Shown piece after piece: positions 8,224 to 12,311 of a stretch of 12,311 nucleotides of DNA. Position numbers and translations under genes: made by a program. The notes under the pieces are model-generated. The model was not told the origin of the DNA, did not search any database, and saw only the letters and a list, made by a program, of their open reading frames with translations. Source of the stretch: Deltaproteobacteria bacterium RIFOXYA12_FULL_61_11 (lineage in GTDB: Bacteria > Bdellovibrionota_F > JAHFAK01 > YA12-FULL-61-11); assembly GCA_001799195.1 (NCBI GenBank), contig MGSU01000099.1:1-12311 (forward strand), in the 5' to 3' direction. Each line of letters opens with the position of its first letter. Positions within the stretch are counted from its first letter, which is position 1.

Positions 8224-8367
8224 GTTGTTCTCCCTCGACCTCGCTGCAAGGTTCGGGAGTGCGGCTTCGCTGCTTGCCGTCGAATCGACCCGATGGTACT
8301 CTGTCCTTTCTTGGAGTGAGGTGGTTGTGAAGGCAGCGTGGGGAAATCGAGTCCGACGTGGGTCCCC

Positions 8368-8700
8368 ATGACAACAAGGAAGCATTTCTGGCAACTATCT
8401 GGAACCACGTTATTATTGCTAACCTTATTAAACGAGATACTTATCGTACTCCCCGGTTATCTCTTCGATTTCACAGGTAGTTGTATTAAATTAACACCAT
8501 TTTCAACATTGTTTGCATTGATGGCATTTGCTTTTGGACTTGTTTACCCAACATTATCATTCGCCTTATTTGTGACGGGTCTGATTCGAGTTGCTGTTTC
8601 AATATCTAGTAGAAATGATATCTTTTCCTCACTATTGATCATGTCAACCAATGGTTTGCTTATTGTAGTAATTATCTTAGATAATTGTGGTAGTGTATGA
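8368..8700 (+). CDS. Small AT-rich membrane protein, unrecognised
   Basis: The 110-residue product (MTTRKHFWQLSG...) has about three hydrophobic segments: residues about 14-31 (LLLLTLLNEILIVLPGYL), a long one at about 46-70 with a proline in the middle (FALMAFAFGLVYPTLSFALFV), and about 92-105 (STNGLLIVVIILD). I recognise no family. GC content is about 36%, against roughly 60% or more in the flanking genes, so it was probably acquired. The ATG at 8368 coincides with the start of AT-rich sequence; an in-frame GTG at 8338 would add ten residues. Neither start has a good Shine-Dalgarno. The stop overlaps the start of the next small ORF. It may be a real small membrane protein (for example an immunity- or toxin-like one), but that is speculation. 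Confidence 0.5.
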   Translation: MTTRKHFWQLSGTTLLLLTLLNEILIVLPGYLFDFTGSCIKLTPFSTLFALMAFAFGLVYPTLSFALFVTGLIRVAVSISSRNDIFSSLLIMSTNGLLIVVIILDNCGSV

Positions 8701-8866
8701 AATTAATGATGGTAATGTACATCTCGGGTACTGCACGTCTTGGTATGATTGGAGTGTTTGGGAAATAACCCCTGACGGCATCCAAACGCTTCGCCGTTCC
8801 TGGTCCAACCAACCTCCAATACAAGCAGAGCTTTTCTATGATGAGTTGGACACCTTTCAGCACTGA
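8693..8866 (+). CDS. Small unrecognised ORF overlapping the preceding membrane ORF
   Basis: The frame reads 57 codons from a GTG: VYEINDGNVHLGYC, then a Trp/Tyr-rich centre and ELFYDELDTFQH at the end. The composition (acidic, five Trp, balanced) looks like a genuine soluble protein rather than random translation. The GTG overlaps the end of the upstream ORF by eight bases, as in translationally coupled pairs, but there is no Shine-Dalgarno. It could also be the 3' remnant of a longer gene whose 5' part was lost, because an in-frame stop (TAG, 8678-8680) lies close upstream. No family is recognised. Confidence 0.35.
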   Translation: MYEINDGNVHLGYCTSWYDWSVWEITPDGIQTLRRSWSNQPPIQAELFYDELDTFQH

Positions 8867-8908
8867 AAACTCTGCTAGGTGCATTGTCTTCAGGGCAACA
8901 TCAGGTTC

Positions 8909-8937
8909 TTGTCAACCTTCTTTAACCTTGATATCAT
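8909..8937 (+). promoter_or_regulatory. Candidate sigma70 promoter upstream of the HD-GYP gene
   Basis: TTGTCA (8909-8914) and TATCAT (8932-8937) each match the sigma70 consensus at five of six positions with the optimal 17-bp spacing. Transcription would run toward the HD-GYP gene with a leader of about 220 bases. AT-rich acquired DNA produces such matches by chance more easily than the GC-rich flanks. Confidence 0.35.
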
Positions 8938-9046
8938 AGGAGAATTCGTCCTCCTTGCCTTCCGTCGCAATCTCGGCTATACCTCTTCCCAGGTTCACAA
9001 AGGCCGAATCACTGTGGTTCTCAACTACCTGTGCCTGCGAGTACAT
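8912..9046 (-). CDS. Possible 44-residue minus-strand ORF
   Basis: From the ATG at 9046 the frame reads MYSQAQVVENHSDSAF, then VNLGRGIAEIATEGKEDEFS and a short DIKVKEG end. The balanced, acidic, helical-looking composition is more protein-like than a random frame, and the frame stays open upstream to 9262. There is no good Shine-Dalgarno and I recognise no family. It may be a small gene, a 3' remnant of a degraded gene, or chance. Confidence 0.25.
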   Translation of the reverse strand: MYSQAQVVENHSDSAFVNLGRGIAEIATEGKEDEFSYDIKVKEG

Positions 9047-9061
9047 GGTCAACTCACTGCT

Positions 9062-9110
9062 GCGGCGAACGCTCCTTTCATCGCGCCGCTTGCCAGAGGC
9101 GTTAGCCCGC
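9062..9110. repeat. Imperfect inverted repeat of unknown role
   Basis: The arms GCGGCGAACGCTC (9062-9074) and GAGGCGTTAGCCCGC (9096-9110) pair imperfectly around a loop of about 21 bases, with extra unpaired bases on the right arm. AAC in the left arm and GTT in the right arm give it some resemblance to an integron attC site, but it is shorter than usual and the right core GTTAGCC departs from GTTRRRY. Confidence 0.3.
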
Positions 9111-9166
9111 TTCTGTATGTACAAACCAACAGTGGTAGATAAGCGGGACACAGGGGAAGCGTCACT

Positions 9167-10849
9167 ATGCCAAGGCATACTCATCAACCACACAATAAAA
9201 ACGATACGATGGAAAAACGGGCGGCTGAGTTGGCCGTTGCCAACCGAGAACTTGCCTTTCAAAATGAAGAGAAGGAAAAACGGGCGGCGGAATTAGTCAT
9301 TGCCGATCAAGAGCTTCTCTACCAGAACAAAGAGAAGGAAAAACGGGCGGCGGAATTAGTCATTGCCAACCAAGAACTTCTCTTTCAAAACGAAGAGAAG
9401 GAAAAACGGGCGGCGGAGTTGGTCGTTGCCAACCAAGAACTTCTCTTCCAAAACGAAGAGAAGGAAAAACGGGCGGCGGAGTTGGTCGTTGCCAACCAAG
9501 AGCTTCTCTTTCAAAACAAAGAGAAGGAAAAACGGGCGGCGGAATTAGTCGTTGCCAACCAAGAGCTTCTCTTTCAAAACAAAGAGAAGGAAAAACGGGC
9601 GGCGGAATTAGTCGTTGCCAACCAAGAGCTTCTCTTCCAGAACGAAGAGAAGGAAAAACGGGCGGCGGAATTGGTCGTTGCCAACCAAGAACTTCTCTTT
9701 CAAAACGAAGAGAAGGAAAAACGGGCGGCGGAATTAGTCGTTGCCCATCAAGAAACTGTCCGCCGCCTGAAAAACATCCAGGCTTTGCAGAAAATCGATC
9801 AAGCCATCGCAGGCAGCCTCGACTTAGACCTTACTTTGAACGTCATCCTCGAACAAGTCAAAACTCAGTTGAATGTCGATGCCGCCGCTGTTTTGCTACT
9901 CAACCAACACACCCAAATATTTGAATTCAAAGCGGGGCTTGGCTTTCGAAGTAAAGCCATTGAGCGTTCACGCCTGCGGCTAGGTGAGGGATATTGCGGT
10001 CGCGCTGCGTTGGAACGAAGGACGGTGAGCATCCCTAATCTGCTCGAGAATAGCTCCCAATTCGACCGCGCTCAGCTTCTTGCTGACGAAGGTTTTGTAA
10101 CGTATTTCGGAGCCCCTCTCATTGCCAAAGGCCAGGTGAACGGAGTGCTAGAAATCTTTCATCGCCTGCCACCTGCACCTGACGAGAACTTGTTGGATTT
10201 CTTGCTGATACTGGCCGGGCAAACGGCTATTGCAGTGGATAGCGCCAGTCTTTTCATTGAATTAAAACGCTCCAACGCTCAACTGTTCGCGGCGTATGAT
10301 TCCACCATTGAAGGCTGGTCACATGCGCTGGATTTGCGCGATAAAGAGACTGAAGGCCACACCCTGCGCGTTACGGAAATGGCGTTGAAACTTGCACGCG
10401 CGGCGGGAATTACCGAAGAAGAGTTGGTACACGTACGGCGCGGTGCGCTCTTGCATGATATTGGTAAGATGGGTGTACCAGACTACATTCTTCTCAAACC
10501 AGGTAAACTAACAGACGAAGAATGGGTAGCCATGCGTCAGCATCCTACCTTTGCCTTTGAATTACTCTCTCCCATTGCGTACCTTCGCTCCGCGTTGGAC
10601 ATCCCTTACTGCCACCACGAAAAGTGGGACGGAAGCGGTTATCCACGCGGGCTGAAAGGTGAGCAAATTCCACGGACAGCACGTCTCTTCGCGATCATTG
10701 ATGTTTGGGATGCCCTCCTCTTTGATCGCCCGTATCGTCAGGGTTGGTCGGAAGAAAGGGTCCGTGAACATATCCGATCACTTACCGGAACGCATTTTGA
10801 CCCCGAGGCCGTAGCATTGTTTTTTCGTGCGGTACATGGAAAGCCGTAA
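9167..10849 (+). CDS. Coiled-coil/GAF/HD-GYP cyclic-di-GMP phosphodiesterase
   Basis: The 560-residue protein has three parts. Residues 15-200 are nine tandem 21-residue repeats of the type EKEKRAAELVVANQEL, predicted to form one long charged helix or coiled coil. Residues about 205-345 are a GAF domain (LQKIDQAIAGSLD to AGQTAIAVDSASLF). Residues about 360-556 are an HD-GYP domain with H430-D431 (HDIGK), MRQHP, H483-H484 and the signature HHEKWDGSGYPRGLKG (GYP at 491-493), plus D in AIIDVWDAL. All metal ligands appear present, so it should hydrolyse c-di-GMP to pGpG or GMP in response to a GAF-bound ligand. No membrane segment or receiver domain is seen. The ATG at 9167 is chosen because AGGGGA precedes it by nine bases; an in-frame ATG at 9209 lacks such a site. 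GC is lower than in the flanking genes. Confidence 0.93.
   Translation: MPRHTHQPHNKNDTMEKRAAELAVANRELAFQNEEKEKRAAELVIADQELLYQNKEKEKRAAELVIANQELLFQNEEKEKRAAELVVANQELLFQNEEKEKRAAELVVANQELLFQNKEKEKRAAELVVANQELLFQNKEKEKRAAELVVANQELLFQNEEKEKRAAELVVANQELLFQNEEKEKRAAELVVAHQETVRRLKNIQALQKIDQAIAGSLDLDLTLNVILEQVKTQLNVDAAAVLLLNQHTQIFEFKAGLGFRSKAIERSRLRLGEGYCGRAALERRTVSIPNLLENSSQFDRAQLLADEGFVTYFGAPLIAKGQVNGVLEIFHRLPPAPDENLLDFLLILAGQTAIAVDSASLFIELKRSNAQLFAAYDSTIEGWSHALDLRDKETEGHTLRVTEMALKLARAAGITEEELVHVRRGALLHDIGKMGVPDYILLKPGKLTDEEWVAMRQHPTFAFELLSPIAYLRSALDIPYCHHEKWDGSGYPRGLKGEQIPRTARLFAIIDVWDALLFDRPYRQGWSEERVREHIRSLTGTHFDPEAVALFFRAVHGKP
9211..9754 (+). repeat. In-frame 63-bp tandem repeat array (nine copies, last one partial)
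   Basis: Copies begin at 9211, 9274, 9337, 9400, 9463, 9526, 9589, 9652 and 9715, exactly 63 bp apart. Adjacent copies are nearly identical; those at 9463 and 9526 differ at 2 of 63 positions. The first copy and the last are the most diverged. Each unit encodes 21 residues, that is three heptads, so copy gain or loss keeps both reading frame and heptad register. Confidence 0.97.
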
Positions 10850-10924
10850 GCCCCACGGGGGGGCGCGGCTAGAATGTGCTAGAAAGCCAAGCAGGGATCA
10901 AAGTACAGTTTCTGAGGGTAGCAA

Positions 10925-12311
10925 TCAGTAGACCCGCAGTTCGTAGATTCTGGCGACGTTCGAACCATGAGTCGCGTCGATCATGACCCGAACCTTGGTG
11001 GTGGACACCGGGGTGAACGTGTGGCTCCGATGGCGGAAGAGGTTGTCTTTGATGGTCGCAACGGTGCTGTACGCACCATTCACCATGGTTTGGACCCGGT
11101 AGTCGCGGATCATCTCGGGATTTCCCGGCATCGGGTTCTCCTGACCCTCGAGCAAGGATTCGAAGTACAGCTCTACGCGTTCGACCTGGGTACTACGGGG
11201 CAGGGTTACCTCCAGCCATTGGGGTAAGCTCTTGGAGGGATCCGAGGCCCACTTGTTCCAAGCATAGAGGCGGTTGGTGCACGTCTCCCCGCAATTGTTC
11301 GGCGCATGGTTACCGATATTGTAGCGTTTGCCGTTCGCGGCGTTCTGGGGATACCAACTCTCGATTCCGTCAGGACTGAAATACACGGCGTAGAAACCGT
11401 CGTACACCGTGAAGGTGATGCCGTCGCCCGACGATACTCGGTACGCGTTGTCGAGGGTATTGGTCATCAGACTGATACTCAGGTCGGGGTGCTTGTCGAG
11501 GAAGAACCAGATGTATTCGTAGGCCGCGATATCGGTCTGCACCTTGAATTCGACCCAGTTCGCTCCGGGCGGCACACTGGCGGTGACGGCTTTGAGGTCA
11601 GTGCGCGAGGAGGTAGTGCGGGGCAGGTGCTCTCCGCGCAGGTGGAGGGTAAGGCTCCGCGCTTCGGCCGAGGCGTTGCGCAAATGGCAGAAGATGCTGT
11701 CGATGCGCTTGTTCACGGCGAGGTAGACCTGACCCTTGTGGTACACCCCCATCGGGTGGGCGGTGTCGCCGAGGGTGAGGTTCGAACGATTGAGGACGAT
11801 CGCGGGTTTGCTGCTCGACGCCGAGAAGATACCACCGAGAGCGAGGTCAGAGGGATCGGCATTGGAAAGTCCGGGTATCAGGGCATCCTCACGGAGGAGC
11901 AACTGCTGCAATTCGCCGAGGTGTTGAGCCCGCACCTGCCGGGGAGAAAGACCGTACTTCTTGCACAGCGAGGCTGCGGCGCCGATGGCTTGCCCCATGG
12001 TGGCATTGGTGACCATGACCCGAGTGGAGCCCAACGCCTCGCGCGTGGCCGAGAGATTCCTCCCCGCCATCATGAGGTTAGAGAGGTCTTTTGAATAGAG
12101 GGCGCCAAAGGGAATGGAATAGGGTTGGACGTACTCGTGGGTGCAGGGCCACTCGTTGTGCAGCTTGGTGTTGAAGAAGAAGCCCTCTGCGGGATGGACG
12201 TCGATAGGCCAGCCGCCCACGGCCACACGGTCGTCGAAGAGCCTTGCCTGCCGGATATCCTCGGCCTGTAAGAGGACATCCCCGATAATCCTCCGGGATT
12301 CGCGTTTACCG
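10925..12311 (-). CDS. FAD-dependent oxidoreductase with C-terminal discoidin-like domain (partial, N-terminus outside window)
   Basis: The frame is open to the right edge (461 codons seen), so the N-terminal FAD-binding Rossmann motif is not visible. The visible part begins with GKRESRRIIGD, then VAVGGWPIDVHPAEG, PYSIPFGALY, NLMMAGRNLSATREALGS and MGQAIGAAASL. These are the characteristic blocks of the FAD_oxidored family (PF12831), whose members are flavoproteins of mostly unknown substrate, often in carbohydrate-rich accessory regions. A middle beta-rich region follows. The last 115 or so residues (from about WNKWASDPSKS to the end ARIYELRVY) look like an F5/8 type C (discoidin) carbohydrate-binding domain, which suggests a secreted or surface enzyme acting on a glycan or bound to one. 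The gene converges with the HD-GYP gene, 75 bp between stops. The oxidoreductase family is confident, the substrate unknown. Confidence 0.85.
   Translation of the reverse strand, partial: GKRESRRIIGDVLLQAEDIRQARLFDDRVAVGGWPIDVHPAEGFFFNTKLHNEWPCTHEYVQPYSIPFGALYSKDLSNLMMAGRNLSATREALGSTRVMVTNATMGQAIGAAASLCKKYGLSPRQVRAQHLGELQQLLLREDALIPGLSNADPSDLALGGIFSASSSKPAIVLNRSNLTLGDTAHPMGVYHKGQVYLAVNKRIDSIFCHLRNASAEARSLTLHLRGEHLPRTTSSRTDLKAVTASVPPGANWVEFKVQTDIAAYEYIWFFLDKHPDLSISLMTNTLDNAYRVSSGDGITFTVYDGFYAVYFSPDGIESWYPQNAANGKRYNIGNHAPNNCGETCTNRLYAWNKWASDPSKSLPQWLEVTLPRSTQVERVELYFESLLEGQENPMPGNPEMIRDYRVQTMVNGAYSTVATIKDNLFRHRSHTFTPVSTTKVRVMIDATHGSNVARIYELRVY

Follow-up and report, generated by a model that had tools for sequence, protein, structure and literature searches.

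Does a tandem-repeat helix at the start of a signalling protein act as a length-based switch, or is it a rod whose length can change with little consequence for the domains behind it? The window, the whole 12,311-nucleotide stretch of DNA analysed here, carries an array of 63-bp units ahead of the GAF and HD-GYP domains of one protein, and an earlier note had read it as a recently expanded signalling helix whose copy number could tune c-di-GMP signalling. The reading that we favour, with some reservation, is that the array forms an N-terminal helical rod, most likely a parallel dimeric coiled coil that preserves register, and that its length drifts without serving as a switch.

The repeat array and the protein that carries it

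Tandem Repeats Finder, run on the whole window, detected a sole array (9211-9754, period 63, 8.6 copies, 91% matches, no indels), and translation resolves it into nine units in frame at the start of a 560-residue ORF, with the Pfam domains behind it (Table 1), as the earlier note had described. The reading frame is open from 9143, with an ATG at 9167 behind AGGGGAAG and an alternative ATG at 9209.

Table 1 Position of the repeat-bearing gene, its parts and its surroundings in the window
Feature	Position	Strand	Description
Low-GC stretch with the gene	8300..10860	.	0.38-0.54 GC; probable acquired segment
Gene for 560-aa protein	9167..10849	+	13-residue N-tail, nine 21-aa repeats, GAF, HD-GYP
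Predicted single uninterrupted alpha-helix	9197..9811	+	Residues 11-215; AlphaFold2 of tract
Nine in-frame 63-bp units	9206..9772	+	21 aa each, consensus EKEKRAAELVVANQELLFQNE, residues 14-202, phase EKxKRAAEL...
GAF domain	9821..10237	+	Pfam PF01590, E 1.9e-16; residues 219-357; Foldseek matches are GAF structures
HD-GYP phosphodiesterase domain (HD_5)	10325..10807	+	Pfam PF13487, E 3.1e-32; residues 387-547

Interior units 3-8 share 92-97% nucleotide identity and deserve their description as nearly identical, whereas identity to the remaining units is 65-84% for unit 1 and 65-79% for unit 9; identical DNA occurs in no two units, and the longest exact repeat is 89 bp. Diverged edge units around a similar middle are the usual shape of arrays that exchange units internally. 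Changes among the interior units are indeed mostly silent (mean dN 0.017), but with a mean dS of 0.24 the "very low" synonymous divergence that had been claimed is too strong. Since the interior units differ to this degree, they are not freshly copied, and with edge units that are far more diverged the expansion is not a very recent one. Mean pS is 0.20 in the window array, compared with 0.28 to 0.80 in seven other arrays of the same family.

Each interior unit also contains, once, a 24-nt near-perfect inverted repeat with a 9-bp stem, for example CTTCTCTTTCAAAACAAAGAGAAG (window 9314-9715). The hairpin beats nearly all synonymous recodings (0 to 0.12% are as stable, in a post hoc test on units that are not independent), and it might favour slippage. 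We rejected it as a feature of the family, as it is strong in the window array only and weaker in other arrays.

Behind the array, the HD, HDxGK and HHE..DGxGYP motifs of the HD-GYP domain are intact. Among 40 aligned sequences the invariant columns are H398, H430, D431, H459, H483, H484, D488, G489, G491, Y492, P493 and D512, and the motif residues are H430-D431-x-G433-K434, H483-H484-E485 and D488-G489-x-G491-Y492-P493; with these HD-GYP motifs the window protein is a predicted c-di-GMP phosphodiesterase. The closest solved structure to its GAF-HD-GYP core, PDB 4mcw (E 1.2e-49), is also the top Foldseek match. PmGH-type phosphodiesterases (PDB 4mcw, 4mdz, 4me4) have this core in common with the window protein, but their solved chain of 369 residues covers the core only (query 207-555) and leaves the repeat tract unmatched.

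Structure prediction agrees with the earlier expectation of a continuous helix: AlphaFold2, given the tract with a tract-only alignment, predicts one helix (Table 1) with pLDDT of about 95 over most of it, and by arithmetic (1.5 Å per residue) the 189-residue tract would make a rod of ~28 nm. The full-length model has two helices with a break at residues 132-141, where pLDDT is below 50; we regard the break as a modelling artefact, because the tract-only model is unbroken and the sequence of that unit equals its neighbours. Conservation across the family has a period of 3.5 residues, which holds 76% of spectral power and was matched in strength by 0 of 50,000 permutations, and the unit length of 21 is three times seven; in hydropathy this period is missing (permutation p 0.59-0.69). 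The description of each unit as three heptads therefore holds for length and conservation and fails for hydropathy, and the unit departs from the textbook a/d hydrophobic zipper. Given the strong 3.5-residue period in conservation, a heptad-based interface is nevertheless likely, though it is no plain leucine zipper. The hydrophobic residues I10, I11 and F18 are spread over several faces of the unit; those on other faces could make additional contacts, and the tract may bind other proteins.

A 21-residue repeat family, its constraint and its copy number

Judged by sequence, the unit is a member of a recurrent, unnamed family of 21-residue helical repeats. It is present in 14 of the 247 genomes of L012's phylum, which is read here broadly as Bacteroidota, and one genus of that phylum has it in 20 of 61 species; IMG/VR contigs carry it as well. 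Chloroflexota (201 genomes) and the phylum of the Pseudodesulfovibrio MAG L018 (247 genomes) each gave one weak match that is not the repeat proper, with identities in the range of 39-49%, and 386 genomes spread over the domain gave the repeat's own genome and one weak match. Across 224 units in 32 ORFs, the spacing within arrays is 21 residues, with 2-20 copies and one 25-residue step (in L149), and four positions are near-invariant (L9 in 223 units, L16 in 218, A12 in 216 and E15 in 210). The hosts, mostly from Bacteroidota, are histidine kinases, PAS-kinases, one chemotaxis-type protein and another HD-GYP protein. By Pfam, the tracts lie ahead of HisKA, PAS, MCPsignal or HD-GYP domains; several Bacteroidota proteins have the tract between two signalling domains, and in 26 of 56 tract ORFs it starts within 50 residues of the frame start. 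In Bacteroidota, several proteins of one genome carry the unit.

In the scanned proteins, neither Pfam nor NCBIfam offers a credible match to the unit, and its sequence goes unmentioned in the open literature searched (subscription papers lay outside the search), so annotation pipelines probably overlook it. The Pfam families PH_SLA1 and CMV_1a_C were rejected for the tract as compositional, since their matches fall inside tracts of unrelated proteins. Among individual hosts, in L146 (1828-3450) twelve units precede a methyl-accepting chemotaxis signalling domain, and the only other Pfam match is compositional. The proteins of L138, L139, L140 and L147 are short, combining the tract with a dimerisation segment like that of kinases (HRVRQP-type motif) but lacking an ATPase domain, and a similar lipoprotein-like gene lies downstream of three of them. 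In L153 (3102-4115), a TAA stop shortly after the seventh unit splits a tract-kinase gene whose frame resumes beyond it. In L089 (7101-7141, an IMG/VR contig), one unit is apparently 11 bp short relative to its neighbours, which splits the frame; this seems to be either a real mutation or an assembly error.

Selection acts on the unit at the protein level. The near-invariant sites use all six leucine, all six arginine and all four alanine codons, and between arrays identity is 0.43 at the third codon position compared with 0.77 at the first and second. In L182/L183, the closest ortholog pair with arrays, dN/dS (by a simple counting method, at a dS near 1 that is close to saturation) is 0.022 in the tract compared with 0.067-0.068 in the remainder of the kinase, making the rod more constrained than the kinase that carries it. 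The same two arrays have nine colinear units each at a dS of about 0.8-1.1; the units correspond one to one, including VKEK in unit 7 and QTG in unit 8, and at third positions tract and flank have only 67% and 68% identity. Arrays can therefore persist unchanged for long, with the age of this split only roughly gauged, since a dS near 1 approaches saturation.

Length nevertheless varies in the wider kinase family, where 11 orthologous PAS-tract-PAS-kinases have 6, 8, 7, 5, 9, 9, 6, 9, 5, 6 and 12 units. In every pair shown the difference in tract length is a multiple of 21, and the part behind the tract keeps to 671-687 residues, which bears out the earlier idea that length can change with frame and heptad register preserved. 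Internal spacing was 21 by direct count, and a 21-residue grid served to count the units of the orthologs; the comparison therefore bears mainly on junctions, and L144 and L145 (one genome) were excluded from it because they have another tract-PAS junction and shifted anchors. One genome per species was compared, all data on copy-number change come from Bacteroidota kinases, and copy numbers in these genomes need caution because assembly can collapse tandem repeats (PMC6868369). Copy number also differs between near neighbours in the tree, most of whose inner branches are weak. We conclude that, over the timescale of species, kinase tracts lengthen and shorten in whole units.

Probable foreign origin of the gene

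The gene stands apart in composition, with a GC3 of 0.52 compared with 0.78-0.85 in five neighbouring genes, inside a low-GC stretch of ~2.5 kb. One tract was found in the window genome (342 contigs, 87% complete), and the tract is absent from 97 other genomes drawn as relatives and from the sole other genome of the organism's phylum in the collection. The simplest reading is that the gene is foreign and arrived by transfer. Against plasmids, the repeat as a query had no match, and the island DNA matched with its HD-GYP part alone (66-69% identity), without a link to a mobile element; no tRNA was found near the island.

The core starts at the same place in GAF-HD-GYP relatives, among them proteins of Chloroflexi, Bacillota and Nitrospirota, and none of the 80 that were read carries the repeat. 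In 79, what precedes the core is other sequence, by eye mostly PAS- or GAF-like, followed by a short linker; the 80th, L046, is truncated by its contig end. A Pfam search upstream of the array returned no match to a sensor-domain remnant. Taken at its simplest, this comparison suggests that the tract took the place of a sensor domain in a GAF-HD-GYP protein. Two neighbouring features were also recorded. An AT-rich stretch (window 8338-8700) adjoins the probably acquired gene and contains a 120-residue hydrophobic ORF without a Pfam family, and on the minus strand at 10925-12310 lies a gene, cut by the contig end, for an FAD-dependent oxidoreductase with an F5/8 type C (galactose-binding) domain.

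Proposed function of the rod

We propose a model in which a 21-residue helical unit was grafted before a GAF-HD-GYP phosphodiesterase, where relatives carry a sensor. A parallel dimeric rod would hold the GAF-HD-GYP pair together and would space or dock it, and recombination between the 63-bp repeats would gain and lose units. As one unit corresponds to exactly three heptads, adding or removing one would keep the register of the downstream domains, and for this reason length would be tolerated and would drift between species instead of switching. Phytochrome-linked cyclases offer a parallel, since their linkers keep the coiled-coil pattern when lengths change by multiples of seven, and they show that steps of this kind occur commonly and can coexist with regulation (PMC9587094). 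The linkers of PadC-type phytochrome-diguanylate cyclases resemble the tract in that homolog lengths come in heptad multiples, but they are single, short and placed between sensor and output, with no tandem repeat or near-invariant unit (PMC9587094).

The length-based contingency switch of the earlier note, in which the number of units would shift rapidly inside a population and determine phosphodiesterase output, earns little credence from these data. In-frame 63-bp repeats with an 89-bp exact repeat are substrates for recombination, congeneric orthologs do differ in copy number, and in E. coli the helix repeats of tolA contract at 6.9e-5, RecA-dependently, and alter stress tolerance (PMC3477136). 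However, L182 and L183 have each held nine colinear units over a dS of about 1, the interior units of the window array at dS 0.24 are not fresh copies, and heptad-preserving steps should keep the phase of the output. TolA domain II does share in-frame repeats in a long helix, with 8-16 copies among isolates (PMC3477136), but TolA links a membrane anchor to a periplasmic domain and its variation, unlike that of the tract, is within species and measured. Since the TolA repeats vary within species and modulate stress tolerance (PMC3477136), tuning by length may, by analogy, still occur. That the array is a product of assembly or binning, with a wrong copy number or a chimeric contig, is hardly credible: the assembly is of metagenome type, in 342 contigs, and the composition of the gene is unlike that of its neighbours, but ordinary reads can span the longest exact repeat of 89 bp, unit-specific differences fix the order of the units, and the contig has an equal high-GC composition on both sides of the gene.

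Two further readings give the tract a more specific role. S-helices are single segments of ~40 residues with an ERT signature, polar at R and T (PMC1592074), and an S-helix that was amplified in tandem and continues to relay signals to GAF or HD-GYP would account for several features of the tract. Both are helical segments whose conservation has a heptad period, next to HisKA, PAS, GAF or HD-GYP domains (PMC1592074), with conserved unit positions of the tract following the heptad; the unit core R-x-x-E-L-x-x-A-N-x-E-L resembles S-helix-like linkers such as TRRSEELSLANLEL, and the tract lies between two signalling domains in several Bacteroidota proteins. We consider this distinctly unlikely all the same. 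The ERT signature is absent, its place being taken by K4-R5-A6 (R in 197, A in 206 and T in 7 of 224 units), and the best E value of a tract HMM against S-helices was 0.44, which is not significant; a separate profile test had only 9 usable ERT segments to draw on. The tract runs to 20 tandem units and is often N-terminal, and one member is fused to an MCP domain, a fusion that S-helices avoid (PMC1592074). The window protein has no sensor domain ahead of the tract, other family members being mixed in this respect; because only about 13 residues precede the tract and the ERT signature is lacking, the earlier term "signalling helix", in the sense of a relay from sensor to output, finds no support here. 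The tract may work like an S-helix where it lies between domains, but we do not file it as a member. An unlikely but broader alternative is a shared assembly module, in which the near-invariant unit surface, outward hydrophobic residues included, joins tract proteins to one another or to a common partner and so co-localises kinases, chemotaxis-type proteins and c-di-GMP enzymes. The unit seems to be conserved beyond the demands of an ordinary coiled coil, dN/dS of the tract is 0.022 compared with 0.068 for the kinase, several proteins of one genome share the unit in Bacteroidota, and nearly half of the tract ORFs (26 of 56) begin with the tract close to the frame start. The window genome, at 87% completeness, has only one tract, however, so a partner tract is not needed there. 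On this doubtful but sequence-compatible view, the unit would be a transferable brick for signalling assemblies whose copy number sets reach with register undisturbed; if true, one shared surface would unite unrelated kinases, chemotaxis-type proteins and c-di-GMP phosphodiesterases.

The register-preserving rod that we prefer bears on a general question. Coiled-coil linkers are common in signalling proteins, and steps of seven are known to be what counts in their length. The orthologous kinases provide a natural series in which one family has 105 to 252 rod residues in 21-residue steps, with flanks nearly unchanged. Because this series exists and the rod is more constrained than the kinase, whether coiled-coil length matters when register is kept can be tested directly on natural kinase variants. 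The window itself also holds, on the minus strand at 1-1083, a GAF-containing protein, cut by the contig end, that runs into a kinase-like EKMATLGQLAAGLAHEINNPL segment; the S-helix-like linker TRRSEELSLANLEL of this truncated protein resembles the repeat unit.
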